A DNA stretch of 33,186 nucleotides from Spirochaetales bacterium (GTDB lineage Bacteria; Spirochaetota; Spirochaetia; JAIPGG01). The stretch covers positions 1 to 33,186 of the forward strand of contig JAIPGG010000021.1 of NCBI GenBank assembly GCA_021736255.1, in the 5' to 3' direction. Below are positions 119-22,619 of the stretch, in pieces. The position numbers and the translations under genes were made by a program. The notes under the pieces are model-generated. The model saw only the letters and a list, made by a program, of their open reading frames with translations, was not told the origin of the DNA and did no database searches. How positions within the stretch are numbered: position 1 is the stretch's first letter; every line of letters starts with the position of its first letter.

Positions 119-829
119 TTACACAAGGTTTGAACCAGTATTTATGAGATGCCCCATTTTCTGCACTTTTGTTTTCAAATAGTTCTCATTGTATCGGTTC
201 TGTTCCGTTACCAGGGGTATCCGCCTTGTCACCTCGATATTTTCTTTTTTGAGACTGTCTATCTTTTCAGGGTTGTTCGTGAGCAGGGCCACCGATTGAA
301 TGCGGAGCAGCCTAGTAATCAGGGCGGCATCAACATAATCACGGGCATCATCGGGGAGGCCGAGAAGGCGGTTGGCCTCAACCGTATCGAGCCCCATGTC
401 CTGAAGGTGATACGCTTTGATTTTATTCAGAAGACCGATCCCGCGCCCTTCCTGGCGAAGGTAGATCACTACCCCGTATTCCTGTTTGCTGATGTACCGA
501 AGAGCTGCTTCCAGTTGATCACGACAATCACAGCGGAGAGAGCCCAATACATCTCCAGTGTGACACTCGGAATGCACCCGCATTGGGCAATCGGTTTTCC
601 CGGCGACATCACCCTGAATAACCGCAGTATGTTCCTTTCCATCCCGTTCATCGAGAAACCCTGCCAGGGTAAAGGTTCCAAAGCGGGTCGGCAACTCCGC
701 CCGGGCCGTAAATTTAATATGATTTAGAACAGAGATTGTCCCGTTCTTGGGATCATCATCACCTTTTCTATATCCGGGGTGACCGTTCACCTTCAAAAGC
801 AACTGTCCTCGTTCTTCTTCAGGGCTCAT
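119..829 (-). CDS. ribA: GTP cyclohydrolase II
   Basis: It opens the imidazole ring of GTP, releasing formate and pyrophosphate, to give 2,5-diamino-6-ribosylamino-pyrimidinone 5'-phosphate, the first intermediate of riboflavin and of some pterin-like metabolites. The 236-residue protein has the family zinc cysteines C89, C100 and C102 in RVHSECHTGD...RCDC, the loop QEGRGIGL (126-133), R163 aligning with the catalytic Arg128 of the E. coli enzyme, LTNNPEK (183-189) and the usual C-terminal KMGHLI. Y140 aligns with E. coli Tyr105, so the complete reaction including deformylation is expected. There is no fused DHBP synthase domain. The ATG at 829 has GAGG about 9 nt upstream. It follows a glycosyltransferase on the same strand after 91 nt holding its own promoter candidate. 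No other classical riboflavin gene is adjacent; its likely partners are the RibD-like, dehydrogenase and PTPS-like genes at 8337-10524. Confidence 0.95.
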   Translation of the reverse strand: MSPEEERGQLLLKVNGHPGYRKGDDDPKNGTISVLNHIKFTARAELPTRFGTFTLAGFLDERDGKEHTAVIQGDVAGKTDCPMRVHSECHTGDVLGSLRCDCRDQLEAALRYISKQEYGVVIYLRQEGRGIGLLNKIKAYHLQDMGLDTVEANRLLGLPDDARDYVDAALITRLLRIQSVALLTNNPEKIDSLKKENIEVTRRIPLVTEQNRYNENYLKTKVQKMGHLINTGSNLV

Positions 830-869
830 TTTTTTTCCTCTACTCTGATTTTTATTATGATCGGGTTAA

Positions 870-898
870 ATAGTAGTAACGGTTCCTGAATAAGTCAA
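870..898 (-). promoter_or_regulatory. Candidate sigma-70 promoter for ribA
   Basis: Reading the minus strand, TTGACT (898-893) and TACTAT (875-870) are separated by 17 nt. Transcription would start near 863, giving a leader of about 34 nt that includes the GAGG ribosome-binding site of ribA. It was assigned by eye. Confidence 0.4.
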
Positions 899-920
899 AT
901 CATATACAGGAAAAGCGGGC

Positions 921-2174
921 TTAGTTCGACTTGGGTGAACAGTGATTGAGGTGATGTCTGTTGATTACTTCCCTGTAGAAATCCTGGAGCATCTCGACAG
1001 AACGATCTATAGTCCAATACTGTGCATAACGGCACGCTTCTGCAGATTTTTCCTGCCACAATTTTCTGTCTACTAACAGCTGGTACACACGGGAGGTGAA
1101 TTCATCCAAATCGGGCTCAGTCATAAACCCTCCATTATCCCCATTCATAATTTCACAGGTTCCCATCCTGCCTACTGCGACTACCGGCAGACCTGATAGC
1201 ATTGCTTCGATGGTTACTAATCCCTGTGTTTCAGTAGTGGAGGGGAAAACGAAGACATCGGATGTGCGATAGAGCATGGAAATAAAATCCGGAGACTGAT
1301 ATCCGATAAGCAAAAACTCATCTTCCCATTCCCGGCCTCTGGCAAGTGCCTTGAGGTATTCGAATTCAGGCCCATTTCCGACGAGCACCGTCGTTAGGCC
1401 GGAGACCTTATCACGAAGTCTCTTGTGAGTTTCCACAAGAAAATTTACATTCTTCTCGTGCGCAACACGGCCGACAAAAAGAAGCCGACGCCTCCCCGAC
1501 AAAGAGGGAAACCGGTTTGTTACTTCCCGTTCCAGCCTCTGCTGCTCTTCCGCTTCCGCCGGCGGTTCCCCACCCGGCCGTACAGGAAAACGCCGGCTGT
1601 TCACACCGGTAGGAATAGACCGTATCGGAACACTCACCTCGTATTCTTCCAGAACCCTCTTCATCTGTGATGTGGGAGTTATAACGCCGCAGCTGCTGTT
1701 ATAGAAATTTCTTTGACTCCTGCGTGCGAGCCATCTGCCGAGGGAATGGGGGACCCAAGGGAAATACAGATTGACGTACTTTTCGAAGTATGTGTGACTG
1801 GTTGCAATCCAGGGAACCCCTCTTTCTTTACAGTACCGGGCCCCTTTGCGCCCCAAGGAAAATTCTGTTTGCACATGAACAAGATCGGGCTGGAATTTAT
1901 CAAGATCATTCCAGATATGCTTTTTCTGCACAGGAGAAACCAAACGGTCTTCTTTGTCGGGTGTCAAAATAAGCTGATACGAGCTGTACCGGTGTACAGT
2001 AAAGTTATAGGTTCTGTCTTTTTCTTGTGTCTTGCGATCTTCTGTCTTGTAATCCGGCACCAGCAATAATACATTATGCCCAGCATTCACTAGCGCTGTT
2101 GCGAATGTTTCGACCGAAATTGTTACACCATTGATGCGGGGCCAAAAAGTATCGGACAGATAAGCTATATTCAT
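921..2174 (-). CDS. GT4-family glycosyltransferase, diacylglycerol-glucosyltransferase-like
   Basis: A 417-residue GT-B fold glycosyltransferase. The N-terminus (MNIAYLSDTFWPRINGV) and overall plan resemble the GT4 enzymes that glycosylate diacylglycerol or phosphatidylinositol on the cytoplasmic membrane face. The nucleotide-sugar half carries a strand with GRVAHEKN and the E-x7-E signature in ETQGLVTIE, followed by AMLSGLPVVAVG. No signal peptide or membrane helix is visible, as expected for a peripheral enzyme. Sugar donor and acceptor cannot be read from sequence. It begins at ATG 2174 with no Shine-Dalgarno sequence but a -10-like TATAGT 9 nt upstream, and diverges from the methyltransferase at 2231. 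A glycolipid role is inferred from the family and from the CDP-alcohol phosphotransferase nearby. Confidence 0.85.
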   Translation of the reverse strand: MNIAYLSDTFWPRINGVTISVETFATALVNAGHNVLLLVPDYKTEDRKTQEKDRTYNFTVHRYSSYQLILTPDKEDRLVSPVQKKHIWNDLDKFQPDLVHVQTEFSLGRKGARYCKERGVPWIATSHTYFEKYVNLYFPWVPHSLGRWLARRSQRNFYNSSCGVITPTSQMKRVLEEYEVSVPIRSIPTGVNSRRFPVRPGGEPPAEAEEQQRLEREVTNRFPSLSGRRRLLFVGRVAHEKNVNFLVETHKRLRDKVSGLTTVLVGNGPEFEYLKALARGREWEDEFLLIGYQSPDFISMLYRTSDVFVFPSTTETQGLVTIEAMLSGLPVVAVGRMGTCEIMNGDNGGFMTEPDLDEFTSRVYQLLVDRKLWQEKSAEACRYAQYWTIDRSVEMLQDFYREVINRHHLNHCSPKSN

Positions 2175-2183
2175 TGTGTAAAG

Positions 2184-2212
2184 ACTATATCAATTTCTTC
2201 TTATTGCGTCTA
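2184..2212 (-). promoter_or_regulatory. Candidate promoter for the 921-2174 glycosyltransferase (leaderless start)
   Basis: On the minus strand, TAGACG (2212-2207) and TATAGT (2189-2184) are 17 nt apart. Only 9 nt separate the -10 hexamer from the ATG at 2174, so transcription would begin within a few bases of the start codon. No Shine-Dalgarno sequence is present, which agrees with a leaderless mRNA. Confidence 0.4.
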
Positions 2213-2230
2213 TTTTTTAGATTGCTTGTT

Positions 2231-3136
2231 ATGAGTATGGATGATGTAAAATCATATTATGATCACAATACCCGGCGTTTTCTGCATTTTGGAGATGGAA
2301 ACCGTGAACAGGTTATACACCGGGCCGTCAATCTACAGATTAAAAATCACCCCTTTGACCTGATGCGCAGCCAGGAGCTCCTGATTTTAGAAGAACTAAA
2401 AGATGTTCCAGCCGGCACGGTTGTGGATCTCGGATGCGGTGTCGGTGCCTCGATGAATTACATTGCCGCCTCCAGATCCGGCAGCTATCGGGGAATAACC
2501 TTGAGCTCCACCCAAGCTGCCGTTGCAGCCCGGACCCTACAGAAACATTCATCTTCCGAAGAGAGTTGCCTTCCAGAGGTCTATGAGGGGAGCTACCTCG
2601 ACCGGGATCTCGTTCGTCGAATCCTCTCTGACCGAAAGACCGCTGCGGCCTATGCGATAGAATCATTCCTCCACTGCCCGGACCCGGCGGAGTTTTTCTC
2701 CCTGTGGTCATCGGTCCTCAAACCGGGAGGCAAACTGATAATTTGTGATGACTTCTCTATCCGGCCGGCTGAGGCGGAAAAGGGGGATACTCGCCGGGAA
2801 CGTTTGCTCCGGGATTTTAAGCGGGGATGGAAGGTAGAAAACCTTCTCGAGGTAAAGCAGGTGAAAGAGCTGGCCGGCAATTACGGTCTAGTTCCGATAG
2901 GCGACAGAGACCTTACCCCCAACCTGGTACTTCAACGCCCGCGTGATCGAATAATCCGGTTCCTGGTTTCTGTTCTCCGTCCCATGGAACTGGGAGAAAG
3001 ACTTCCCTTGCCCTGGAGCTGGTGGCAAAACTTCCTCGGAGGGAATGCCCTGCAGCAGGCGCTTCTTGCAGGAGATCTCAGTTACCGCTTTCTTGTTTTC
3101 CGGAAGCCCGAATCACATCGAGAAAAAACCGGATAA
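2231..3136 (+). CDS. Class I SAM-dependent methyltransferase
   Basis: The 301-residue protein has a Rossmann-type motif I, VVDLGCGVGAS (D66-G72 core), and a later KPGGKLIICDD motif, both typical of class I methyltransferases. The opening YYDHNTRRFLHFG and IHRAV are seen in small-molecule C- or O-methyltransferases related to the tocopherol/sterol group, but the substrate is not determinable. An in-frame TTG at 2174 would add 19 residues; I prefer ATG 2231 because the fold starts there and the extension is hydrophobic and unconvincing. No clear Shine-Dalgarno sequence precedes it. It diverges from a glycosyltransferase, and its last 59 bases overlap the 3' end of the convergent sulfatase-like gene. 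It plausibly methylates the product or lipid made by this cluster (inference). Confidence 0.8.
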   Translation: MSMDDVKSYYDHNTRRFLHFGDGNREQVIHRAVNLQIKNHPFDLMRSQELLILEELKDVPAGTVVDLGCGVGASMNYIAASRSGSYRGITLSSTQAAVAARTLQKHSSSEESCLPEVYEGSYLDRDLVRRILSDRKTAAAYAIESFLHCPDPAEFFSLWSSVLKPGGKLIICDDFSIRPAEAEKGDTRRERLLRDFKRGWKVENLLEVKQVKELAGNYGLVPIGDRDLTPNLVLQRPRDRIIRFLVSVLRPMELGERLPLPWSWWQNFLGGNALQQALLAGDLSYRFLVFRKPESHREKTG

Positions 3137-4820
3137 ACTCATCCATCCGCTGTGCAGGCGGAGACAAATCCGGCTCGAAACCGGCGGAAAAACCGGCCTC
3201 TATAAAGGGAAGGAGCAATTCACTTTTCTTTGAGACCAGATGTATCGGAACTCCCTGTCCTGAATTCCGCTCCCTCACAGGAAAACGAGGCTGATGGTCC
3301 CCTACGATGATGATCAGTGAATCATCCCGAATGAAGTTTACTAAGTAATCACTAATAGTCGTCAAAGAATAATCGATGGACGCAGTGTAACCTTCCGGGT
3401 ATTCATCTCCTGAAAGCCAGCCATTGTCGAAGTAGCTGCTCTCTACCGAATGAAAGATGCTCCCGTCGCTCAATTCTCCCCAATCCTCAACATACCCGGG
3501 AACAATGTGAAAGGGAGTATGGCTGCTGACCATCATGTACATAATAAAACAGGGACGGCCGGCGGGGATTTCTGCAAGCTTTTGGTCGGTAGCAAAAAGA
3601 AAATACTGATCCGGCATATCACCGAAACTGTAGGTCGGGCCGGAATAATCATAGGCCTCTCGGAAGAGGTAGGAATCGAATCGGTAAAAATTCCTCCATG
3701 TTTCGTCCGCCTTGTCCGTCCCCGGGGCTGCCATTACCCGGTGGTATCCGGCTTCGCCGAGTTCGTGGGTGAGGTTTTTACGGCCTGAATGAAGAATTTG
3801 ATCATACGTATGCTGACTGTCAATCCACACTCCCGTAAGGAGGGTCGCATCAGAAAACCAGGAACGACCTCCGGTGGTAGGAGCTTCTATAAAGCCCGAG
3901 ACCGAAAAATATCCCGCTTCAGTTAGCTGATTTTCGATCTCTGCATACCGCTCGCTAATAAGCCGGTAGTGGTCTTCCCGGGAAAAAAGTGTTCTCCCGT
4001 AGGATTCGATAATAAAAAGATGAATATCCCGTCCGTCCAGGAAAGGAAATGACTCGGCGGCTGCTTCCCGTAAAGGACTTGGTTCTTTTGGCCGATCGTC
4101 TTTTGCAGTCGGGGAGCCCTGGGATGAAGAATTCCCGTCCTCATGGACCGGATTCTGTGTTCGGGATGGAGGCTGAGACTGAGACAACTCAGCATGAGAG
4201 TCTTCAAACTGGACTCGGGAGGGTGGAATCAACTGACGTCCCATTCTTGCAGATATCGGTGTTCCCCCCGGAAAAAACAGAGCCGGCAGAAGAAGGAACA
4301 ACGGAATGAGAAGGGCTTTTTTCCCGAGCGGCTGAATTGTTCGTCGCAGTTTCGTGATCGAAAACCTGATCCCACACGCACTACCTGCAACCACAGCAGC
4401 TATGAAAAGTACATACAGAATCTGCAGAAAAACCGTGGTCTCGCCGAGCATCATCTTGATCAACGGTCCGAGAAACCTCAGATCGGACCAGGGGACAAAT
4501 CCACGAGAAAAAACATAACGATTAAAGGCTTCTCCCAAGCCGAACAGGAAAATGACCAGAAAAACCGCCGATATTACCCATTCGATGCGGCGAAGTTCCT
4601 GCCCGTCCTTTTTTGTTCGTATCCAAGAAGCGAGCACAAACCAGAGGGCCAACCCTACTGTTTCAAAAGATGGAACGATCAGCCAAAGAAATCGGTACTC
4701 AGGGAGCCAACGATAAACGGTAAGCGCTGTGTTCAACACAAAGAGCATGGCAATCATGCTGAGAATGCGGTAGAGGTTCTTCCTGTTCCGTATGCCTTCT
4801 CGATTATTATTCTGCTTCAC
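3078..4820 (-). CDS. LTA-synthase/sulfatase-like membrane phosphotransferase (alkaline phosphatase superfamily)
   Basis: The 580-residue protein starts with about five hydrophobic helices within residues 1-190, then a Pro/Ser-rich linker near 205-260, then an extracytoplasmic alkaline-phosphatase-superfamily domain. Visible motifs are IHLFIIESYG (near 270, metal-binding Glu), TTGGRSW (near 313, where related enzymes carry the catalytic Thr or Ser) and IIIVGDHQP (near 510, metal-binding Asp-His). Relatives transfer glycerol phosphate or phosphoethanolamine, or hydrolyse phosphate or sulfate esters, outside the membrane. The start is GTG at 4820 with AAAGGA 8 nt upstream, inside the end of the preceding gene, so translation is probably coupled. 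It is last in a three-gene minus-strand unit with the CDP-alcohol phosphotransferase fusion and a glycosyltransferase, supporting a role in decorating a lipid or envelope polymer. Confidence 0.8.
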   Translation of the reverse strand: MKQNNNREGIRNRKNLYRILSMIAMLFVLNTALTVYRWLPEYRFLWLIVPSFETVGLALWFVLASWIRTKKDGQELRRIEWVISAVFLVIFLFGLGEAFNRYVFSRGFVPWSDLRFLGPLIKMMLGETTVFLQILYVLFIAAVVAGSACGIRFSITKLRRTIQPLGKKALLIPLFLLLPALFFPGGTPISARMGRQLIPPSRVQFEDSHAELSQSQPPSRTQNPVHEDGNSSSQGSPTAKDDRPKEPSPLREAAAESFPFLDGRDIHLFIIESYGRTLFSREDHYRLISERYAEIENQLTEAGYFSVSGFIEAPTTGGRSWFSDATLLTGVWIDSQHTYDQILHSGRKNLTHELGEAGYHRVMAAPGTDKADETWRNFYRFDSYLFREAYDYSGPTYSFGDMPDQYFLFATDQKLAEIPAGRPCFIMYMMVSSHTPFHIVPGYVEDWGELSDGSIFHSVESSYFDNGWLSGDEYPEGYTASIDYSLTTISDYLVNFIRDDSLIIIVGDHQPRFPVRERNSGQGVPIHLVSKKSELLLPFIEAGFSAGFEPDLSPPAQRMDEFIRFFLDVIRASGKQESGN

Positions 4821-4824
4821 CGCA

Positions 4825-6489
4825 TCAATCCTTTAAAACCGCATAAATATCACCCGAAGGTTCGTTGCCGCGCAACCCATTCAAGAATTTTCTCACTTCT
4901 TCCCCGTCCTGCCATTGGTCCCAATACCACTTCATACTCTCGGTCTGCGAAAGGTTATACTGGTACCCGCCCACTGTTTCGATATGATCGAGACATGCCA
5001 GGGCAACCTCCGGATCAGGAGGAAGAAATTCGAAGGAAAACCGGGGAAGCGGCCGGTCGAGCCCCCGGAGGACCTGCATCTCCGCCCCTTCCACATCGAT
5101 TTTTACAAAATCGGGAGTCCCGTATTCACGGATGAGCTGAGCAAGGGTAGTAATTTGAATCCTCTCATCGGCTTTTTGCCAAGTGATACCGGCGAAGGCC
5201 TCGGTATTCGAAACCCGCTCGATCCATTCGGCTGATAAGGTCGTTAGTGTCGGGCTCTGGTCACAGACGTACAGATCCGCACTTCCCTTCCGTTCACCCA
5301 CGGCTTCAAAATGAAGTTTCACGCCTGGGTCTTTCCCGTAACGGCTCTCGAGAATCCTCCTGCAGTAAGGCTGGGGTTCAAGGGCTACCACCTGTGCTCC
5401 GAGGTCTCGAAAGACCCGGATACGGTTTCCCACATGCGATCCGATATCAAATAAAAGCCGGGCCTCGGGAATAAGACGGCGGTAAAAACGCCTCATCCGC
5501 CGCCTTCGTCCGGGAACCCAGTAGTAGACTGCTATTGAGTGCAATAACCCCCACAAAAAACGGCAGCTGCCCCGTTTCTGTTCGTGCCCGCTTCTGTTTT
5601 TTCCCCCTCCGCTGCAGTAAGTAACCGGCCACAGAAGGCGCAGCACCAACTCAATCAAGAAAGAAAGGAGAATCAACCCTGTGGCTGCTACAGCCAAAAG
5701 ATCAGTCATCGGAGAACCGAAAAAGGGAGCTGCGGCAGCAGTCAGCATCCCCATGGCTACAGCGGTAGAGGATTTTGCATACAACACAAAGGGGCGAGGA
5801 AATTCACTCCGGTCGGGGAGAAATTGAAAGATGATGAAAAAACCATACCGGGCCAAGCCGGTCAAAGCGGTATAGACCGGCAGGCCCCATCCGAGAACTC
5901 CGCCTACACTCAGGGCATAGAGGAAGAAGGCATCCGACTCCATATCCCACCGGGCTCCGAAGGGAGTCGGGCCATATTTTCTGGCAATGATCCCGTCAAA
6001 AGCATCACTTGCTGCGGCCGCAGCCAGCAAGAGTAGAAGCCACATTTCTTTTCCCGGTCCACTTACGCTCAATACCAGAAACAGCAGGAAGGCTGCAGCC
6101 GGTCTAACGGAGGTAACCAAATCCGCTGCCGGTATCCCCGAAGAACTCTTACCTGCGAAACTCGACGAATCGGCAGGCCCCTGGTTCGGAGCAAAACCCT
6201 GGCCAGGCGCAGATCGCTGAACCGATTTGCCGCCCTTTGCTTGCCGTGCATCCCGAAGAGTAAAAAAGAGGAGGCCGCAGAGCCCCCAAATCCCCGCCGC
6301 CAAAGCAAACCACGGCAAGGGAAGGAGGGAAGAAGCTCCGGCCGAGATCGGCCCGGCGGCTTCGGCCGTCCACCTCCAGCCTACAAAACTCCCGAGGGGG
6401 AGGCCGCACAACGCCCACACAATCATACCAAGCGAATAGACTGTATAGCCGATATTCGGCAATCTTTGCGGCTTCATCTTCGATTTCAT
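4825..6489 (-). CDS. Fusion of CDP-alcohol phosphotransferase and FkbM-type methyltransferase
   Basis: One uninterrupted 554-residue frame holds two enzymes. The first ~300 residues are a polytopic membrane domain with the CDP-alcohol phosphotransferase signature: DAFDGIIAR (near 160-168), then GARWDMESD (near 176-184). All four Asp, the two Gly and the AR pair are present; the AR-to-Gly spacing is 7 rather than the more usual 8. Such enzymes transfer a phospho-lipid group from CDP-activated lipid to an alcohol. The last ~210 residues are an FkbM methyltransferase with LLFDIGSHVGN (near 345), VALEPQP and FVKIDVEGAE (near 458). I chose ATG 6489 because it overlaps the upstream stop as ATGA and has GGAG upstream; an ATG at 6558 would overlap the upstream gene by 73 bp. 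The fusion suggests one pathway attaches and methylates the headgroup (inference). Confidence 0.85.
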   Translation of the reverse strand: MKSKMKPQRLPNIGYTVYSLGMIVWALCGLPLGSFVGWRWTAEAAGPISAGASSLLPLPWFALAAGIWGLCGLLFFTLRDARQAKGGKSVQRSAPGQGFAPNQGPADSSSFAGKSSSGIPAADLVTSVRPAAAFLLFLVLSVSGPGKEMWLLLLLAAAAASDAFDGIIARKYGPTPFGARWDMESDAFFLYALSVGGVLGWGLPVYTALTGLARYGFFIIFQFLPDRSEFPRPFVLYAKSSTAVAMGMLTAAAAPFFGSPMTDLLAVAATGLILLSFLIELVLRLLWPVTYCSGGGKNRSGHEQKRGSCRFLWGLLHSIAVYYWVPGRRRRMRRFYRRLIPEARLLFDIGSHVGNRIRVFRDLGAQVVALEPQPYCRRILESRYGKDPGVKLHFEAVGERKGSADLYVCDQSPTLTTLSAEWIERVSNTEAFAGITWQKADERIQITTLAQLIREYGTPDFVKIDVEGAEMQVLRGLDRPLPRFSFEFLPPDPEVALACLDHIETVGGYQYNLSQTESMKWYWDQWQDGEEVRKFLNGLRGNEPSGDIYAVLKD

Positions 6490-7985
6490 TTGTTCTCCGG
6501 TTTTCGGGAAGGACAGGGCGTCCGAGTCAGTTCTTCCACTGCTTTTGCAAAACACCATCCCATTTTCTCCGCCGCGCGGGAATACCCACCCATCCCGCCG
6601 GCATTCTGAGCTTGAGCTGCGGCAGAATCGGCTGCCTCTGCTGCAAGTTTTGCGCGCCAGGCATCATCCAGCAAGTAAAGCTGAAGGAAACTCCGCCAAA
6701 CCGGCCGGTCTCCGGGCGGCAGCAAAACAGCTCCCCACCCCTCTTTTGCTGCCTCCGGCACTCCCCCGACCCGGGAAACAGCCACCGGAGTCCCCACCGA
6801 CAAGGCTTCGGCAGCAACCATCCCGTAACTCTCGAACCGGGAAGGCATAATTACAAGATCTGCTTCCCGGTACTTCTGAAATAATTCTGCCGGCGACAGG
6901 CTCCCAAGAATTCGAATCCGCCGGCCAAAAGGAGAAGAGGAAATTTCTTTTTCCACCAGCGCAGTGTAATCTTTGTCGAAACTCCTGTCCCCCGCGAGTT
7001 CGAGTATCCAAGGCTGTTCTTCTTTTCCGCTGGGGCCGGGGCTGGGTTTGGGGCCGGCGGAGACGGTCGATAACGGTACCGAAGAGCCTTCACCGGTGTT
7101 CAGATTCAGCGACAAAAAGATTCGTACCAAAAACAGAATATTCTTGTTCGGGTGCCAGTTCGCCGGCAGCAAAAACCGTACTGGTCCGGCAGCCCCCGCC
7201 GGCAATCCGCCACCGGAAACCGGCGAGAAGGCGGCCCCAGTCTCCGGTGCCCCAGTCTCCGGTGCCCCCTCCTCCAGTGCCCCGCTCTCTGGGACCCCAG
7301 CCTCCGGTGCGGGAATGTTCGAATCCACACCGGTACCGGCGAAAGCCTTGCCGCCGGGAATTTCCACCAGCGGCCGGCATACCCGAATGAGATCTTTCTC
7401 GAAGCCCCGCCGGCAAAGCTCCTCTTCGAGAAAACAGCTCACTGTGATACAGCCTTCTGCTCCGGAGAACCAGGCTTGCTCATTCTGCCGGAGCCCTTCT
7501 CCTGCCAGAGAGGGTAAATAATGCAGCAAAAGCAGGAGCGGGACTCCCAGCTCTCTTGCCGCAGAGAAAATTTTTTTTCGGGAGGAGGGCTTACAAACGG
7601 AAAGGGCGAGACTGTCCAAAACAAGAATTGTTTGCATTCTATCACTCTGAAAAGGCCCGGCTTCAGCAGCCCCCTTGCCGCCGAACTCGGCGCTGACGGC
7701 GGCCTTATCCCCAGCGCTCTTGTCGAAGCTTCCGGCACTGGCGCCCTGTGCTCCTGCACTGCCGAGAACCTGAGCAGCGGCAGTGTCGCCGGAATCTCCG
7801 GTCCGGATTTCCAGTAACCGGTCCCGCACCTTCTGAGCGAACTCGGCAGGTTCTGCAGCAAGTTCTTCTCCCTCCCAGTCTGTCTCCTTCAACCCGGAAA
7901 GAAGGCGTTGGTTGTATACCGCTCCCCCCGATAGAGGAGAGGAGCTTTTTGCCGGTACCGCCAGAATGATCCGCCCGCGTGTCAT
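6486..7985 (-). CDS. GT4-family glycosyltransferase with low-complexity insertions
   Basis: A GT-B glycosyltransferase of 499 residues from ATG 7985. The C-terminal half shows FLLPANWHPNKN, a DLVIMPSRFESYG stretch and the E-x7-E region ESYGMVAAEA followed by SVGTPVAVSRVGG, all typical of GT4 enzymes. Two Ala/Gly/Pro-rich insertions interrupt the fold: one around residues 75-110 and one around 235-265 built from xPExG pentapeptides. They are probably surface loops. An alternative TTG start at 8021 would add 12 residues; MTRGRIILAV begins the first beta strand and a -10-like TACACT lies 6 nt before this ATG, suggesting a leaderless start. Its stop overlaps the next start (ATGA). It heads the unit 7985-3078. 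The substrate is unknown; an envelope or lipid-linked glycan is the likely context. Confidence 0.82.
   Translation of the reverse strand: MTRGRIILAVPAKSSSPLSGGAVYNQRLLSGLKETDWEGEELAAEPAEFAQKVRDRLLEIRTGDSGDTAAAQVLGSAGAQGASAGSFDKSAGDKAAVSAEFGGKGAAEAGPFQSDRMQTILVLDSLALSVCKPSSRKKIFSAARELGVPLLLLLHYLPSLAGEGLRQNEQAWFSGAEGCITVSCFLEEELCRRGFEKDLIRVCRPLVEIPGGKAFAGTGVDSNIPAPEAGVPESGALEEGAPETGAPETGAAFSPVSGGGLPAGAAGPVRFLLPANWHPNKNILFLVRIFLSLNLNTGEGSSVPLSTVSAGPKPSPGPSGKEEQPWILELAGDRSFDKDYTALVEKEISSSPFGRRIRILGSLSPAELFQKYREADLVIMPSRFESYGMVAAEALSVGTPVAVSRVGGVPEAAKEGWGAVLLPPGDRPVWRSFLQLYLLDDAWRAKLAAEAADSAAAQAQNAGGMGGYSRAAEKMGWCFAKAVEELTRTPCPSRKPENK
7234..7308. repeat. Five tandem 15-bp units inside the GT4 gene
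   Basis: Five 15-bp units lie head to tail; the first two (7234-7248 and 7249-7263) are identical, GCCCCAGTCTCCGGT, and the other three diverge. On the coding strand they give xPExG pentapeptides such as APETG, VPESG and ALEEG. The array is in frame, so gain or loss of units would change only loop length. Confidence 0.85.
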
Positions 7986-7991
7986 GGATAT

Positions 7992-8021
7992 AGTGTACTC
8001 AGCCCGGAGCAACAAGAGCAA
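7992..8021 (-). promoter_or_regulatory. Candidate promoter of the GT4 / CDP-alcohol transferase / sulfatase-like operon
   Basis: On the minus strand TTGCTC (8021-8016) and TACACT (7997-7992) are 18 nt apart, and the ATG at 7985 follows the -10 by 6 nt. No Shine-Dalgarno sequence is visible. The match is modest, but the geometry repeats that of other first genes in the window. Confidence 0.3.
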
Positions 8022-8098
8022 GAAATTACGAGCGCGCGGTTTCTCATTCGCAGCGTGAAGCCGAACGTGCCGGAGAAACCTTGGTTTTCCGCGGGCGG

Positions 8099-8122
8099 GC
8101 CCGGCACACGGCCCGGCACACG
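8099..8122. repeat. 12-bp perfect tandem duplication
   Basis: GCCCGGCACACG occurs twice in direct tandem. Degenerate relatives of it recur about 60 and 110 bp further on within the same spacer. Confidence 0.85.
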
Positions 8123-8298
8123 CCGGTCGGTGGCTGCGTACAGTGGGCGGGCCTGCGTAAGGCAGGCGTGGCCGTCACACGCCGGGCTGTGGCTGTGCTT
8201 AGCCGGCGTGGCCGGCGCACAGTCCCTCGGGACAGGCCGATGGGGCTCGAACCGGGCCTGCAGAATCCGGCCCGAGCGGCCGGCCGTATCGCTCCAGG

Positions 8299-8327
8299 TT
8301 GCAGCGGCTCCCTCGCCCGTCTATAGT
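8299..8327 (+). promoter_or_regulatory. Candidate sigma-70 promoter for the RibD-like / MDR / PTPS-like operon
   Basis: TTGCAG (8299-8304), a 17-nt spacer and TATAGT (8322-8327). The ATG at 8337 lies 9 nt past the -10, leaving little or no leader, and there is no Shine-Dalgarno sequence. This is the best-looking promoter in the cluster. Confidence 0.5.
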
Positions 8328-8336
8328 ATAACTATT

Positions 8337-9083
8337 ATGGAGCGCCCGCATGTTACTCTCAGCTTCGCTCAGAGTGTAGACGGAAGACTTGCAACGATTA
8401 CCGGGGATTCCCAATGGATTTCCGGCCGGGCCGGGCTGAAGGCTGCTCATCGCCTCCGCCGCGACAGTGATGCAATTCTCGTCGGTTCGGGAACTGTTCT
8501 CGAGGACAACCCTCTTCTTACCTGCCGGATTCGTTCCTGCAGAGGCAGAACTCCTCTCCGGATAGTTCTGGACCGGAGACTCAGGATCCCCCTCGATTGC
8601 CGGCTTGTACAAACCTCCGGCGAGGTCCCGCTGCTCATCTACACATCGGAGGGGGCCGATCGGCAAAAACGGGCCCTCCTCGAAAATGCAGGGGTTGAAA
8701 TTATTGAGCTTGAACACGGCCCTCCGGAAAAAATGGAAGCCTCACCGACAGACAGGCTGCCCGTTGAAGGAATTGAAGAAAAGGAAACCCGTACAAGGCT
8801 CCTCGCTTTGGTTCTACAAAATTTGGCAAGACGCGGAGTAAAAAACCTCATGGTTGAAGGCGGGGCTGAGATTGTTACGACCTTTCTTCGCTCAGGATTT
8901 GCCGACAAAGTTATGATTGCAATCGCCCCCATTTTTATCGGTACTGGGAAAGAGGCTGTGGGAGATCTGGAAACCGGCCTTCTCTCCGAGGCTCTCCGGC
9001 CCTCAAAATCACGGCCTCGCCGTTACAGAGATGAAATACTCTGGGAGATGGAATTCAAGCCGGCGGGAGAAGAAAATGAGTAA
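8337..9083 (+). CDS. Stand-alone RibD C-terminal-type (dihydrofolate-reductase-fold) pyrimidine reductase
   Basis: The 248-residue protein matches the reductase half of RibD: SFAQSVDGRLA (9-19), the SQWIS element, GSGTVLEDNPLLT (50-62), LMVEGGAEIVTTFL and PIFIGTG. In riboflavin synthesis this domain reduces the ribosyl side chain of the GTP cyclohydrolase II product with NADPH. The deaminase domain that usually precedes it is absent, and a charged insertion sits around residues 131-157. ATG 8337 is chosen because the family begins just before the SVDG strand and a promoter abuts it. Its stop overlaps the dehydrogenase start by 8 bp (ATGAGTAA). Placed with a dehydrogenase and a PTPS homologue, it probably reduces a ribA-derived intermediate for a product other than flavin (inference). 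Confidence 0.82.
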   Translation: MERPHVTLSFAQSVDGRLATITGDSQWISGRAGLKAAHRLRRDSDAILVGSGTVLEDNPLLTCRIRSCRGRTPLRIVLDRRLRIPLDCRLVQTSGEVPLLIYTSEGADRQKRALLENAGVEIIELEHGPPEKMEASPTDRLPVEGIEEKETRTRLLALVLQNLARRGVKNLMVEGGAEIVTTFLRSGFADKVMIAIAPIFIGTGKEAVGDLETGLLSEALRPSKSRPRRYRDEILWEMEFKPAGEENE

Positions 9084-10080
9084 TACCGGCACCGCACGGG
9101 TTGTCTTTTTTTCCGGCAACCGGGAAATTGAGATCCGCGAAGAACCTGTGTCCCTGAAACCCGGTCAGATCCTCGTCCAATCAGAGGCAATGGGAATAAG
9201 CCACGGTACTGAGCTTTTGGCATACCGGGGGGAACTGCCGGCAGGGATTGAGACAGACACCGGCATCAAGGCTCTAACCGGCAAGATAGACTATCCTCTC
9301 CGCTACGGGTATATGAATGCAGGCTACGACCAAGAGCAGAGACCTGTTTTTGCCTTTTATCCCCATCAGGACAGATTTGCCGCAGAACCGGATGAGCTAT
9401 GGTACCTCCCTGCCGGCATGCACCCGGAGAGGGGCATCTTTCTTCCTCAGATGGAAACCGCCCTTTCGATAGTCCAGGATGCAGCCCCCCTCTTCGGGGA
9501 AACGGTACTTGTTGCAGGCCTCGGTGTGGTAGGACTATTAGTTACCCGCCTTCTTCTTCTCAACGAGGGGCTGAGGGTCATCACCCTCGAACCCGCCTCA
9601 TTACGCCGGGCAGCTGCGGAAGAGGCCGGTGCTATTTCCATCGATCCCGGTTCAGCAGGGAAAACCCCGCCATCCCTTGCCGAACAAATTCTGGACAGCA
9701 ACAAGGGGCGGGAGGCGGATACGGCAATTAATTTGAGTTCAACCAACAGCGGAGCACAGATCTGTCTCGACAGTCTTGTATACGAGGGCAGCCTCATCGA
9801 GGCCTCCTGGTACGGATCAAAAGAGAGCCGTCTGAAACTAGGCTCTTCCTTTCACCGGAAGCGGCTTTCCATACGTTCGAGCCAGGTCTCTACAATCGAT
9901 CCGGCTCTCCGCGGCCGGTGGGACAAAAAGCGGCGTTTCGAGCTGTGCATGGACCTGCTCGATCGCATCGAGCCTGAACGGTATATAACCCATCGCTTTC
10001 CCCTTAGGGATGCGGCGGAGGCCTTCGACTTGATCGACCGTCATCCGGAAGATACCATACAGGTTGTCCTAAAACCCTAA
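9076..10080 (+). CDS. Medium-chain dehydrogenase/reductase, zinc-ligand-poor (BchC-like)
   Basis: A 334-residue MDR-superfamily protein. The N-terminal GroES-like domain has ILVQSEAMGISHGTELLAYRG, where classical alcohol dehydrogenases have a zinc-binding Cys but this protein has Ser-His. The cofactor domain has GLGVVGLLVTRLL, a Rossmann Gly-rich turn, ending in a Glu-containing strand (VITLEP). The structural-zinc Cys cluster is not present, so it is probably a zinc-independent NAD(P)(H) oxidoreductase resembling BchC and the MDR proteins of pterin-like clusters. ATG 9076 has GGGAG upstream and overlaps the reductase stop by 8 bp; a longer frame to 8917 would run far into the reductase gene. 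The PTPS-like gene follows after 27 nt. A role in oxidising or reducing a side chain of the pathway intermediate is inferred. Confidence 0.75.
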   Translation: MSNTGTARVVFFSGNREIEIREEPVSLKPGQILVQSEAMGISHGTELLAYRGELPAGIETDTGIKALTGKIDYPLRYGYMNAGYDQEQRPVFAFYPHQDRFAAEPDELWYLPAGMHPERGIFLPQMETALSIVQDAAPLFGETVLVAGLGVVGLLVTRLLLLNEGLRVITLEPASLRRAAAEEAGAISIDPGSAGKTPPSLAEQILDSNKGREADTAINLSSTNSGAQICLDSLVYEGSLIEASWYGSKESRLKLGSSFHRKRLSIRSSQVSTIDPALRGRWDKKRRFELCMDLLDRIEPERYITHRFPLRDAAEAFDLIDRHPEDTIQVVLKP

Positions 10081-10107
10081 TATATCGGCAACCCTGAAGG
10101 AGCAATT

Positions 10108-10524
10108 ATGTTTCGCGTTGGAGTAGGCGGCAATTATACGGCACGACATTTTCTGATCGGTGATTTCGGAGAAGAATCGACCCCCCATGAGCACCGTTAT
10201 GATGTGCGCTGGATCCTGGAAACCGGAAAACTCGATGAGAACGGTTTCTCCGTGGATATTGCACTTCTCGAATCGATCATAGAAACGTGCCTTGACCGTT
10301 ACGATGGTGTCCTCATGAACGACCTGCCCTGGTTCAAAGGAAAACAGCCGAGTGTGGAAAATACCGCGATGTTTTTAACCGAAGAAATCTTTTCCCGTCT
10401 GCAAAATGCAGAGACTGTTCCCGGCAATCTTCTTTCGAGCGAGCTTCAGGTCTTTGAGTCTCCCACTTCCTGGGCTTCCTACCGGATTGATGGGGAGGGA
10501 ATTGCTCAGCTTCTCCGGCTGTAA
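10108..10524 (+). CDS. 6-pyruvoyl-tetrahydropterin synthase / QueD homologue with altered catalytic residues
   Basis: A 138-residue T-fold protein. H14, H27 and H29 (ARHFL...HEHRY) match the three zinc histidines, SVENTA (82-87) matches the PTPS TxEN segment, and E117 in VFESPTSWASY matches the Glu that anchors the pterin ring. The catalytic Cys expected four residues before the HxH motif is Glu23, and the catalytic His in the LDH motif appears to be Arg (LDR, 62-64). It could therefore bind a pterin or pyrimidine but is unlikely to do the standard PTPS or QueD reaction; Glu in place of Cys recalls PTPS-III enzymes. ATG 10108 has AAGGAG 6 nt upstream. It is the third gene after the reductase and dehydrogenase, and its last 19 bases overlap the convergent SdpI-like gene. 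Confidence 0.8.
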   Translation: MFRVGVGGNYTARHFLIGDFGEESTPHEHRYDVRWILETGKLDENGFSVDIALLESIIETCLDRYDGVLMNDLPWFKGKQPSVENTAMFLTEEIFSRLQNAETVPGNLLSSELQVFESPTSWASYRIDGEGIAQLLRL

Positions 10525-11216
10525 TAACGGGGTAAAATCAATACCGTTACCAGCAGCGCCGCAGCCAGGGGAATGTACAAAACCAATTGGAGAATGCCTG
10601 ATTCCACCAGGGCGGCAGCCAGGAGAAACACCGCTCCGCCGGTAACAAGGAAGCCTCCGGTGCGATGGACGCGGCGCCAAACAAGCGGATTGTTCAAGGT
10701 TGCAGGCACACGTATACCCGTCCAGAAATTGGGTTTGAGTTTTCCGAGCATGTTTCCAATCACCAAAAACAGCACTCCCAAGGCCAAATGGACCATCCTG
10801 GCATCAAAGACCGCATCTTCGGTGGTACTAAACCGGAGTATCAAAAGGTGTAAAACCAAAAGCACTCCCGATACGGCAACGACGATCAGGGAGGTATAGA
10901 CCTTTTCCTCTCCCATACGGGAGCGGAGAAGCAGATACAGTGCAGTAAGAACAAGCAGGACAGCCGGGGCAATGGCTATTCCGAAACTGATCCTGCTGAA
11001 ACTGTCGGGAACACCGGAAACCCCGAAGTGAGTAGGCATCAAACGGTTTGTTCCGGTTCGCTCGACTGCTTCCTGCCAGGCGGAATTGCCTTCGTATCGC
11101 TGTGCCCTCTCGGCAGCTTCATCGACAAGACGGGGATAAAAACTCAGGCTCAGAAGAATCGACACCAGAAGGATGCCGATCAGGCTCGAAACAACCAGTT
11201 TATCCGCTTTGTTCAT
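10506..11216 (-). CDS. SdpI-family multispanning membrane protein
   Basis: The 236-residue protein has about six hydrophobic segments (near 8-27, 78-98, 107-127, 140-160, 188-207 and 210-228). The segment GNMLGKLKPNFWTGIRVP followed by TLNNPLVWRRVHRTGG is the hallmark of the SdpI family, whose founding member gives Bacillus immunity to the SDP toxin; most family members are of unknown function. No toxin gene is adjacent, so immunity should not be assumed. ATG 11216 overlaps the stop of the upstream 2TM/coiled-coil gene as ATGA, so the two are co-translated and probably function together in the membrane. The 3' end overlaps the PTPS-like gene by 19 bp, tail to tail. Confidence 0.8.
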   Translation of the reverse strand: MNKADKLVVSSLIGILLVSILLSLSFYPRLVDEAAERAQRYEGNSAWQEAVERTGTNRLMPTHFGVSGVPDSFSRISFGIAIAPAVLLVLTALYLLLRSRMGEEKVYTSLIVVAVSGVLLVLHLLILRFSTTEDAVFDARMVHLALGVLFLVIGNMLGKLKPNFWTGIRVPATLNNPLVWRRVHRTGGFLVTGGAVFLLAAALVESGILQLVLYIPLAAALLVTVLILPRYYSRRS

Positions 11217-12367
11217 TTGCTGCCGGGTCCTTGTTCGGATTCCTGGTTCGGTTCGGATTCCTGGTTCGGTTCGGATTCCTGGTTCGGTTCATCTTCCCTT
11301 TCAACCCGGAAGAGCTCCTTCAGGCGGCTGATGTGTCGGTTGACAGTCTCGATTGCCTCTCCTGCGGCCCCTTCGACATACCGGCCTGAATCGAGCGTGT
11401 AGCGGTGCAGTTCAGCAATAGCCGTTCGGAGTCTGACCTCAGCCCGTTCCACTTCATTTTGTATCCGCTGAAGGCGCTCGAGCTCATCTTCGAGGACACG
11501 GACAGCTTCGTTGTAATCCTTGCGAACTTCCTCAGAAACAGCCTCCTCGGCTTTTCTCCGGTACTTTTCGAGCTCCTCTGCCACCCGGTCGGGACCGCGG
11601 CCTGCGAGCTGCTTGAGCCGCTGCCGCCGTTTTTCCCAGGCCGACCGAGCCTCGTTGATAAAACCATCGAGTGACTCCCCGGCCTCGGGAATACGCCGCT
11701 TGAGCGAATGAGCGATATCTCTCGCCTCGTTAAAAAAGCTCCGGGACGCTGTTTTCTCTGTTTCAAAGCTCGGTTCGGCAGGTCCCTTTCCCCCGGCAGC
11801 TTCCGCCGTACCGGGCCTCTCCTCCGATGCATCCTCTTCTTCGAAACGCTGATACTCCTCCGGCAGGTCTTCACCGGCAAGAAGGCCGGCCAAGAGCCGC
11901 TTCGACCGGTTGTACCCCGGGATCCTCACCACAATGCCGATTGTCATTGCCGCTGCCGGAATCAAAAACCAGGGAAATCCGAAATAGGTAATCAAGTTGA
12001 TCACAAAGAGCAGCAGAGAAACACTGATAGTGGTAACCAAGTGAATAAAAAACGAGGAACGCTCTTTTTGCGCATCCTTCATGGGCTTGAGCCGGTCATC
12101 CGGCAGGTCCTGGACCGATTCCAGTTCTTCCACCTGCCGCTGGAGCATCAGAAACGATACGGTGTGACTCGAAATTCCGATCCCCCAACCGAAAAGAGGA
12201 AAAACGAACCAGAGGAAACCCGGAGAGGTCACGAGGTTCAATACCACGAGAAAGATATTCACTCCTACATAACTTGCCAGATGAGAAAAATATCCCCGTT
12301 TTTCCTCTACGAGCTTCTTTTTCTTTTTTGCCAGATACCCTGCGATTGTTTTCACTTTATCTCCCAT
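11213..12367 (-). CDS. Membrane protein with two 2TM domains, coiled coil and C-terminal hexapeptide repeats
   Basis: From ATG 12367 the protein is 384 residues. Two similar hydrophobic hairpins, around YFSHLASYVGVNIFLVVLN and around FFIHLVTTISVSLLLFVIN, each preceded by a charged helix, look like two copies of the 2TM domain. A long charged region follows that is strongly predicted as coiled coil by heptad pattern (about residues 215-345, rich in EELEKYRRKAEEA-type sequence), and the tail carries three EPNQES repeats. Function is unknown; a membrane-anchored scaffold is a guess. ATG 12367 is chosen over the upstream frame at 12421 because AGGGGGGT lies just before it. It diverges from radA and is coupled to the SdpI-like gene by an ATGA overlap. 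Confidence 0.7.
   Translation of the reverse strand: MGDKVKTIAGYLAKKKKKLVEEKRGYFSHLASYVGVNIFLVVLNLVTSPGFLWFVFPLFGWGIGISSHTVSFLMLQRQVEELESVQDLPDDRLKPMKDAQKERSSFFIHLVTTISVSLLLFVINLITYFGFPWFLIPAAAMTIGIVVRIPGYNRSKRLLAGLLAGEDLPEEYQRFEEEDASEERPGTAEAAGGKGPAEPSFETEKTASRSFFNEARDIAHSLKRRIPEAGESLDGFINEARSAWEKRRQRLKQLAGRGPDRVAEELEKYRRKAEEAVSEEVRKDYNEAVRVLEDELERLQRIQNEVERAEVRLRTAIAELHRYTLDSGRYVEGAAGEAIETVNRHISRLKELFRVEREDEPNQESEPNQESEPNQESEQGPGSK
11237..11290. repeat. Three perfect tandem 18-bp repeats in the 2TM gene
   Basis: The unit GGATTCCTGGTTCGGTTC occurs three times without mismatch at 11237, 11255 and 11273. On the coding strand it gives the hexapeptide EPNQES (in circular permutation) near the C-terminus. 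Perfect identity implies a recent expansion or active slippage, and it is in frame. Confidence 0.95.
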
Positions 12368-12391
12368 AAATACTACCCCCCTGGTAAAAAA

Positions 12392-12421
12392 ACCATACGC
12401 CCCCCTACCCCTTGAAGTCAA
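12392..12421 (-). promoter_or_regulatory. Candidate promoter for the 2TM / SdpI-like pair
   Basis: On the minus strand TTGACT (12421-12416) and TATGGT (12397-12392) are 18 nt apart, with a leader of about 18 nt that holds the G-rich ribosome-binding site. It overlaps the likely -35 zone of the divergent radA promoter, so the two may compete. Confidence 0.35.
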
Positions 12422-22097: not shown

Positions 22098-22154
22098 GTT
22101 CCCGGTATTGCGATTTTGTCATTTCCGGAACAATCTGCTTTTCAAGGGGGAAGA

Positions 22155-22619
22155 ATGGAATCTACACTCCAAAAACTGGATGAGCTCAAAGGTGACCGAA
22201 GTAATGTAATCAAGGCCCTCCAGCTGATTCAGGTACATGAAGGATTTATCTCCGACACCTCTATCCGGGAGGTTGCCGAGGCTTTTTCTATGCCGGCCGT
22301 GGAGGTAGAAGGTATAGTAAGCTTTTACGCACAGTTCAAGCGCAATCAGCCCGGTAAATACATGATCTCCGTATGCGACGGCACTGCCTGCCATATCAAG
22401 GGGTCACCTCAGGTCCTCCACTGGATATCCGATGAACTCGGAATCGGTGACGAGGAAACCTCCGACGATGGTCTGTTTTCTATAGAACGGGTCGCCTGTC
22501 TCGGCTGCTGCTCGCTCGCACCGGTCATGAAGATCAATGATGAGATTTATGGGCAGCTCAACCGGAAAAAGACCATGAAGATCCTCAAGCAATACCAGAA
22601 GGAGCCGGCAAATGATTAA
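22155..22619 (+). CDS. NuoE/HydC-like [2Fe-2S] subunit of an electron-bifurcating transhydrogenase
   Basis: This 154-residue subunit has a helical N-terminus and a thioredoxin-like [2Fe-2S] domain with the canonical ligands C74-x4-C79 (CDGTAC) and C115-x3-C119 (CLGCC). Such subunits pass electrons to or from the NuoF-like flavoprotein. ATG 22155 is chosen because AAGGGGGAAGA precedes it; the frame is open to 22116 but that extension is not family-like. Its stop overlaps the next start by 8 bp (ATGATTAA). Following genes encode a NuoF-like subunit and a GltD-like fusion with no NuoG, no membrane complex I subunits and no hydrogenase subunit. The set therefore fits the Sporomusa-type Nfn (Stn) better than complex I. 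It may be mis-called nuoE by automatic pipelines. Confidence 0.88.
   Translation: MESTLQKLDELKGDRSNVIKALQLIQVHEGFISDTSIREVAEAFSMPAVEVEGIVSFYAQFKRNQPGKYMISVCDGTACHIKGSPQVLHWISDELGIGDEETSDDGLFSIERVACLGCCSLAPVMKINDEIYGQLNRKKTMKILKQYQKEPAND

Follow-up and report, generated by a model that had tools for sequence, protein, structure and literature searches.

The closest described counterpart of the locus analysed here is the SCO6650–SCO6655 region of Streptomyces, which we take to comprise a PTPS homologue and a GTP cyclohydrolase II (GCHII) paralogue. The structure of SCO6650 has been solved; to our knowledge, its function is still lacking and no pathway has been assigned to the region. For PTPS-IV genes, the sections of the 2017 AGeNNT paper covered here list PF00925 and PF01872 among the neighbours and give no pathway, and they name no MDR dehydrogenase, GT4 glycosyltransferase, CDP-alcohol phosphotransferase or flippase (PMC5445326). 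Here we describe a nine-gene cluster at positions 119–10,524 of a 33,186-nucleotide window, the whole of contig C116 in a 2.66-Mb, 82% complete genome of a Spirochaetales bacterium. Like the AGeNNT neighbourhoods, it sets a PTPS gene beside PF00925 and PF01872 genes; the PTPS itself is of another kind, with a Glu-containing ExxxHxH motif in place of the FGPAQ of PTPS-IV.

On balance, we favour the reading that this cluster encodes a dedicated pathway which takes the first riboflavin intermediate to a pterin-type (2-amino-4-oxo) compound for a glycophospholipid. We regard as possible, though somewhat doubtful, the bolder proposal that it makes the pterin ring by a second natural route, one without GTP cyclohydrolase I, and that the pterin heads a previously unrecognised class of membrane glycophospholipid in bacteria and archaea. 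Our literature search, which had an open-access scope with most subscription journals outside it, found no published function for the cluster pathway; nor did it yield any account of the lipid linkage, the specificity of the reductase, the gene fusions or the replacements across domains reported below. The nine genes are as follows.

119–829, minus strand: ribA paralogue (GCHII); PF00925, 204 bits
921–2174, minus strand: GT4 glycosyltransferase a (GT4a); Pfam and NCBIfam
2231–3136, plus strand: SAM-dependent methyltransferase, ATG at 2231; PF08241 above cut-off
3078–4820, minus strand: LtaS-like membrane enzyme of the alkaline-phosphatase superfamily; PF00884 below cut-off (23.3 versus 25)
4825–6489, minus strand: CDP-alcohol phosphotransferase–FkbM fusion; PF01066 (43.3 bits) and PF05050 (49 bits), both above cut-off
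6486–8021, minus strand: GT4 glycosyltransferase b (GT4b); Pfam
8337–9083, plus strand: stand-alone RibD-type reductase (RibDC); PF01872, 151 bits, and TIGR00227 above cut-off
9076–10080, plus strand: MDR-superfamily dehydrogenase, BchC-like; ADH_zinc_N below cut-off (24.8 versus 31.8 bits)
10108–10524, plus strand: PTPS/QueD-fold protein; PF01242

All nine gene calls of an earlier sequence-only reading of this DNA hold by Pfam or NCBIfam, the MDR and LtaS-like calls lying below Pfam cut-offs. The three transcription units it had proposed become four after analysis of strands and starts; by strand and spacing, these appear to be GT4a–ribA (minus), the methyltransferase (plus), GT4b–CDP-alcohol phosphotransferase/FkbM–LtaS-like (minus) and RibDC–MDR–PTPS (plus). 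RibDC likely starts at ATG 8337 (the open frame begins at 8055 and homology at about 8337), and MDR likely starts at ATG 9076, overlapping the RibDC stop at 9081–9083; the PTPS gene begins 28 bases past the MDR stop. The likely start of the phosphotransferase fusion, ATG 6489, overlaps the GT4b stop (a longer open frame extends to 6558), and the three genes of this unit overlap or sit a few bases apart.

Linkage across phyla and separation from housekeeping genes

Among 296 genomes of the phylum, four others carry a PTPS orthologue at about 40% identity, and RibDC, MDR and PTPS keep the same order in all four. The locus of genome G203 (L040) has RibDC and MDR fused and also carries LtaS-like, CDP-alcohol phosphotransferase/FkbM, methyltransferase, GT4 and ribA genes. 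By the same search, none of 25 ordinary QueD-like loci, mostly covered to about 1.5 kb per side, had RibDC, MDR or ribA. When an MDR alignment was scanned against about 85,000 species genomes, 80 loci were recovered from records of Spirochaetota, Chloroflexota, Legionella, Cellvibrio, Methylococcaceae, Syntrophaceae, Binatota, Bacteroidota, Acidobacteria, WOR-3 and Euryarchaeota; because these loci were picked by MDR alone, their partner genes are independent evidence. Over the 49 named loci in which MDR is flanked on either side by 2.5 kb or more, which are not phylogenetically independent (several are from Legionella, many from Anaerolineae, and L037 and L044 are one place), RibDC occurs in 46, PTPS in 43, GT4 in 42, ribA in 39 and the CDP-alcohol phosphotransferase in 19. 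RibDC, PTPS and ribA stand together in 36 of them, and every locus has at least one of RibDC and PTPS.

Searching plasmid records at the protein level added Streptomyces, Microbacterium, Rhizobium, Methylosinus, Thiodictyon, Rhodobacteraceae and several haloarchaea, where MDR adjoins PTPS, and GT4, methyltransferase and CDP-alcohol phosphotransferase genes are mostly close by; one weaker match in that search, from Nonomuraea, had no PTPS. The common order is RibDC, MDR, PTPS, GT4, usually with ribA and often with CDP-alcohol phosphotransferase, flippase-like and methyltransferase genes, and it recurs in Spirochaetota, Chloroflexota, Pseudomonadota, Actinomycetota, haloarchaea and others. Steps of the cluster are also fused to one another (RibDC–MDR, ribA–RibDC and ribA–MDR). 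The cross-phylum recurrence and the QueD control together rule out a chance neighbourhood. The co-occurrence that the sequence-only reading had suggested looking for therefore extends well beyond close relatives, including to Actinomycetota and haloarchaea, and the link to SCO6650 that it had named proved sound: Streptomyces fungicidicus has a PTPS that is almost the same as SCO6650 where the two align, and around it are MDR, GT4, methyltransferase, CDP-alcohol phosphotransferase, creatininase and ribA genes. The SCO6650–SCO6655 region thus shares with the window both the nearest solved PTPS structure and, through its S. fungicidicus counterpart, the cluster genes. Since the linkage spans bacteria and archaea, a niche metabolite is unlikely, and culturable carriers (Streptomyces, Haloarcula marismortui, Methylosinus trichosporium and Bellilinea) make the pathway directly testable.

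The same Spirochaetales genome has a complete ribD–ribE–ribBA–ribH operon on contig C51 and a typical QueD on contig C96, so the ribA, RibDC and PTPS genes of the window are extra copies. The sequence-only reading had held that a second complete riboflavin operon would support a dedicated role and that classical riboflavin genes are absent from the cluster; the C51 operon answers the first point, and the window scan, which found no linked ribE, ribB or ribH, the second. Together with the linkage in relatives, the operon also removes the situation named there as fatal, that this ribA and RibD-like gene are the only riboflavin genes of the genome and the other genes are unlinked in relatives. 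Synthesis of riboflavin or of the deazaflavin F420 would fit the assignment of ribA and RibD_C to flavin-pathway families, and a review leaves PTPS-V unclear and cites unpublished grounds for PTPS-IV as an F420 enzyme (PMC5041015). We consider either role highly improbable. Besides the separate operon, lumazine synthase was not found in 6 of the 17 cluster genomes checked, including G296 (L043), whose record is labelled a chromosome, and the cluster is still kept in all six, which argues against riboflavin as its purpose in these six genomes. The cluster reductase, moreover, is without the lysine that selects 2-oxo substrates, and among 17 cluster genomes only one has CofH above its cut-off. 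Paralogy, the genomes without lumazine synthase and the specificity residue lead us to reject a riboflavin role, and the CofH count disfavours an F420 role.

It is equally hard to believe that the cluster replaces GTP cyclohydrolase I in folate or queuosine synthesis. The window genome and a few relatives are without FolE, and the proposed product does lie on the folate route; in the window genome, at 82% completeness, no FolE, FolE2 or FolK was detected and QueD is present, which reflects either folate auxotrophy or assembly gaps. However, 25 of 33 cluster genomes carry FolE, the four genomes with FolK among six FolE-less ones checked all have FolE2, and folate synthesis has no use for GT4 or lipid genes. 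Such a substitution was rejected on FolE and FolE2 content.

A side observation concerns the QueD family itself: two matches in relatives (G191:C13:105595 and G269:C9:258521) sit within open frames some 700 residues long, which suggests that QueD-family fusions exist in some of these genomes.

Active sites and the proposed route to a pterin-type compound

The zinc cysteines C89, C100 and C102 are kept, by residue column, in all 59 cluster ribA proteins. Tyr140 of the window enzyme is equivalent to Tyr105 of Escherichia coli, and this Tyr is present in 58 of 58 cluster ribA proteins of the first locus set. Work on SCO6655 reportedly marks enzymes of the Tyr105 type as the deformylating ones, and the window ribA should make the deformylated diaminopyrimidine ribotide. 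In contrast to the Tyr-type window enzyme, the Streptomyces GCHII has Met at this position, presumably as in SCO6655, whose reaction ends with the formylated intermediate, and its gene has a neighbour of the creatininase family (PF02633); ArfB, the archaeal formyl-pyrimidine deformylase, belongs to the creatininase family. The first set, 84 loci with GCHIIs that carry the Tyr, contains neither a creatininase nor a GTP cyclohydrolase III (GCH_III). A creatininase-family gene is present in the cluster region of Haloarcula marismortui, and in Haloarcula pelagica a GCH_III gene (PF05165), unrelated to ribA, lies between the CDP-alcohol phosphotransferase and MDR genes, a non-homologous replacement in the ribA position with a product on the same route. 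These three lines, the Tyr-type GCHII, the Met-type GCHII with a creatininase and the GCH_III swap, point to 2,5-diamino-6-ribosylamino-4(3H)-pyrimidinone 5'-phosphate as the entry intermediate. In a Rhizobium cluster (L132, 8590–9723), a longer RibBA-like protein replaces the plain GCHII beside the CDP-alcohol phosphotransferase and MDR genes.

The window RibDC is a single domain without a deaminase. In bacterial RibD, a lysine (BsRibG Lys151, EcRibD Lys152) favours the deaminated substrate, while fungal reductases have Thr and archaeal ones Asn at this position, and in yeast RIB7 the preference is shifted by the mutation T35K (PMC3631187). The window protein has Ser here, and the lysine occurs in none of 74 cluster reductases, which carry Ser, Thr, Ala, Cys, Asn or His, as against 10 of 10 housekeeping RibDs (that of the window genome and nine bifunctional ones from cluster genomes). 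The Thr79, Asp83, Glu180 and Gly182 essential in RIB7 (PMC3631187) have their counterparts in the cluster reductase. Because they are without the lysine that selects the deaminated intermediate, the cluster reductases should act before deamination and retain the 2-amino group of guanine, which sharpens the predicted product toward a 2-amino, pterin-type compound. In being single-domain, deaminase-free and devoid of the bacterial lysine with the catalytic Thr/Asp/Glu/Gly present, they resemble fungal RIB7 and archaeal RED; unlike these, they adjoin a dehydrogenase in a pterin/lipid cluster, in genomes with or without riboflavin synthesis. In four Anaerolineae loci (L054, L071, L094 and L106), the reductase is of another, archaeal-like type that has Asn and is encoded downstream of GT4, which looks like the replacement of one subtype by another. 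No RibDC was found near the haloarchaeal loci examined, as expected if the archaeal housekeeping reductase supplies the reduction step there, which we infer.

The dehydrogenase aligns unambiguously with its homologues. Its best model is BchC (3-hydroxyethyl bacteriochlorophyllide dehydrogenase), although its 43.6 bits fall far short of the equivalog cut-off of 291. BchC oxidises a side-chain secondary alcohol. Fusion of MDR to RibDC in G203 and to ribA in locus L079 ties it to the pyrimidine branch.

The window PTPS is modelled by AlphaFold at pLDDT 96, and its best match in the PDB is SCO6650 (3d7j, TM 0.84); the T-fold and the three zinc histidines place it in the PTPS superfamily. H14, E23, H27 and H29 are conserved in 65 of 65 cluster PTPS proteins, Glu23 replacing the catalytic Cys, and the pterin-anchoring Glu117 is kept (64 of 64). 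None of three described subfamilies accommodates it: it falls below the QueD model cut-off and has Glu (65 of 65) at the Cys position of the CxxxHGH motif of PTPS-I; its ExxxHxH motif sets the Glu one residue further from the first His than the ExxHGH of PTPS-III; and it has FGEES (cluster consensus WGxEN) rather than the FGPAQ of PTPS-IV, even though the SCO6650-type subfamily provides the nearest structure. The Streptomyces protein differs accordingly, with an FGPAQ..HGA motif and with a zinc histidine and the Glu lost, whereas the window protein keeps the Glu with three His. In the malarial PTPS-III enzyme, the Cys-to-Glu change alters the reaction to give 6-hydroxymethyl-dihydropterin (PMC2229834); the cluster proteins share this exchange and differ in spacing. 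Taken together, the fold, the zinc histidines, Glu23, the anchoring Glu and the lack of the catalytic Asp–His pair make it most likely that the window PTPS binds a pterin-like compound and carries out non-standard chemistry.

Based on family membership and active-site residues, we propose that GCHII would convert GTP to 2,5-diamino-6-(ribosylamino)-4(3H)-pyrimidinone 5'-phosphate, and that RibDC, given its specificity residue, would reduce C1' to the ribityl compound with no prior deamination, as RIB7 and RED do. Chemistry, gene order and the RibDC–MDR fusion suggest that MDR would then oxidise a ribityl hydroxyl. If this is at C2', the ketone and the 5-amino group would condense to a six-membered 7,8-dihydropterin ring with a trihydroxypropyl phosphate side chain, giving 7,8-dihydroneopterin 3'-phosphate or a relative, so that the reductase and dehydrogenase would stand in for the rearrangement by GTP cyclohydrolase I. 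The PTPS-fold protein, with its zinc site and Glu for Cys, may close or process the ring and side chain. GT4, the methyltransferase, the CDP-alcohol phosphotransferase, the flippase-like protein and, in some lineages, the LtaS-like protein would build and export a glycophospholipid with a pterin-type head group, whose covalent attachment is suggested by gene linkage. The GTP cyclohydrolase I/PTPS-III route likewise combines a dihydropterin product class (proposed for the cluster) with a T-fold partner; the cluster differs in that its route begins with cyclohydrolase II (or III) and goes on through a reductase and a dehydrogenase. If true, this would be a new branch on one of the best-known vitamin pathways and possibly a new way to the pterin ring, it would give SCO6650 a function, and it would add a new lipid head group, which might take part in membrane chemistry that involves redox reactions, light or metals.

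It is also possible that the pyrimidine stays open or that the regiochemistry differs. A ribitylamino- or keto-diaminopyrimidine head group joined to lipid by the CDP-alcohol phosphotransferase and GT4 would draw on the same gene linkage and reductase evidence; the phosphotransferase resembles, by weak matches, synthases that use phosphorylated acceptors (glycerol phosphate, inositol phosphate), the reductase product carries a phosphate, and redundancy with FolE disfavours plain dihydroneopterin. We nevertheless hold this alternative to be rather unlikely, as a PTPS with an intact zinc triad and a pterin-anchoring Glu is nearly always there, suggesting a ring-closed ligand.

Lipid-side genes and a possible glycophospholipid product

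GT4a is closest to the curated model for alpha-monoglucosyldiacylglycerol synthase, far below its cut-off, and is only distantly related to the GT4 of other cluster loci; GT4b is probably the divergent counterpart of the GT4 that follows PTPS elsewhere. The window copy of the CDP-alcohol phosphotransferase carries the motif DxxDGxxAR..G...D...D with spacing one residue shorter, and the catalytic motif is found by pattern in 28 of 30 loci and in extra genomes; the same fusion to FkbM occurs in G203. LtaS-like proteins in six further cluster loci share conserved ESYG, GGxSW and GDHQP motifs that align with the window copy. The outer-domain fold of that copy matches LtaS, GacH and MCR-1 in a model of moderate confidence (mean pLDDT 58.8) for a protein whose Pfam sulfatase match is below cut-off; the protein is a candidate phosphoglycerol or phosphoethanolamine transferase. 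Flippase-like LPG_synthase_TM genes (PF03706) are found in 32 loci and methyltransferases in about 35, with homologues of the window methyltransferase beside the cluster in L040, L043 and others.

The simplest reading of the GT4, CDP-alcohol phosphotransferase, flippase-like and LtaS-like genes is a glycophospholipid that is made inside and then exported, and their linkage to the core suggests a pterin or pyrimidine as its head group. Phosphatidylinositol/PIM-type lipid assembly pairs a CDP-alcohol phosphotransferase with GT4 on a polyol head group. The cluster is analogous in this pairing and unlike it in that the lipid genes are coupled to pyrimidine/pterin enzymes. Alternatively, the product may be a soluble methylated pterin glycoside, with the lipid genes serving a separate product or a carrier. 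Cyanobacteria make such a compound, cyanopterin; MDR, PTPS, GT4 and methyltransferase form the tightest unit, and in Legionella and other loci no CDP-alcohol phosphotransferase gene lies near the core. We think this quite unlikely, given that genes for the CDP-alcohol phosphotransferase, the flippase-like protein and sometimes the LtaS-like protein repeatedly accompany the core in unrelated phyla and that the window lipid genes appear to form a tight operon with GT4b.

It should be noted that several findings weigh against a pterin-headed glycophospholipid made by the proposed route. The catalytic Asp–His pair of PTPS is not kept, and the usual Cys/His ligands for zinc are missing from MDR. 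FolE or FolE2 also occurs in most cluster genomes, which would make a second dihydroneopterin route redundant unless the product differs or the pools are separate. On the lipid side, genes are not always beside the core (the CDP-alcohol phosphotransferase in 19 of the 49 loci), none was found near it in two relatives (L038 and L039), and no flippase-like PF03706 gene was found in the window genome, 82% complete.

Neighbouring genes in the window

Downstream of the cluster, a convergent gene for an SdpI-like membrane protein (10506–11216, minus strand) overlaps the end of the PTPS gene with its own end by 19 bases (10506–10524). Next along the window comes an open frame (11213–12421, minus strand) whose product shows two apparent membrane regions and, at the C terminus, a tandem repeat, EPNQESEPNQESEPNQESE. 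Further along, three neighbouring open frames (22116–26368, plus strand) resemble NuoE, NuoF and NuoG/iron-hydrogenase subunits and, by sequence, would form an electron-bifurcating hydrogenase or NADH dehydrogenase module.

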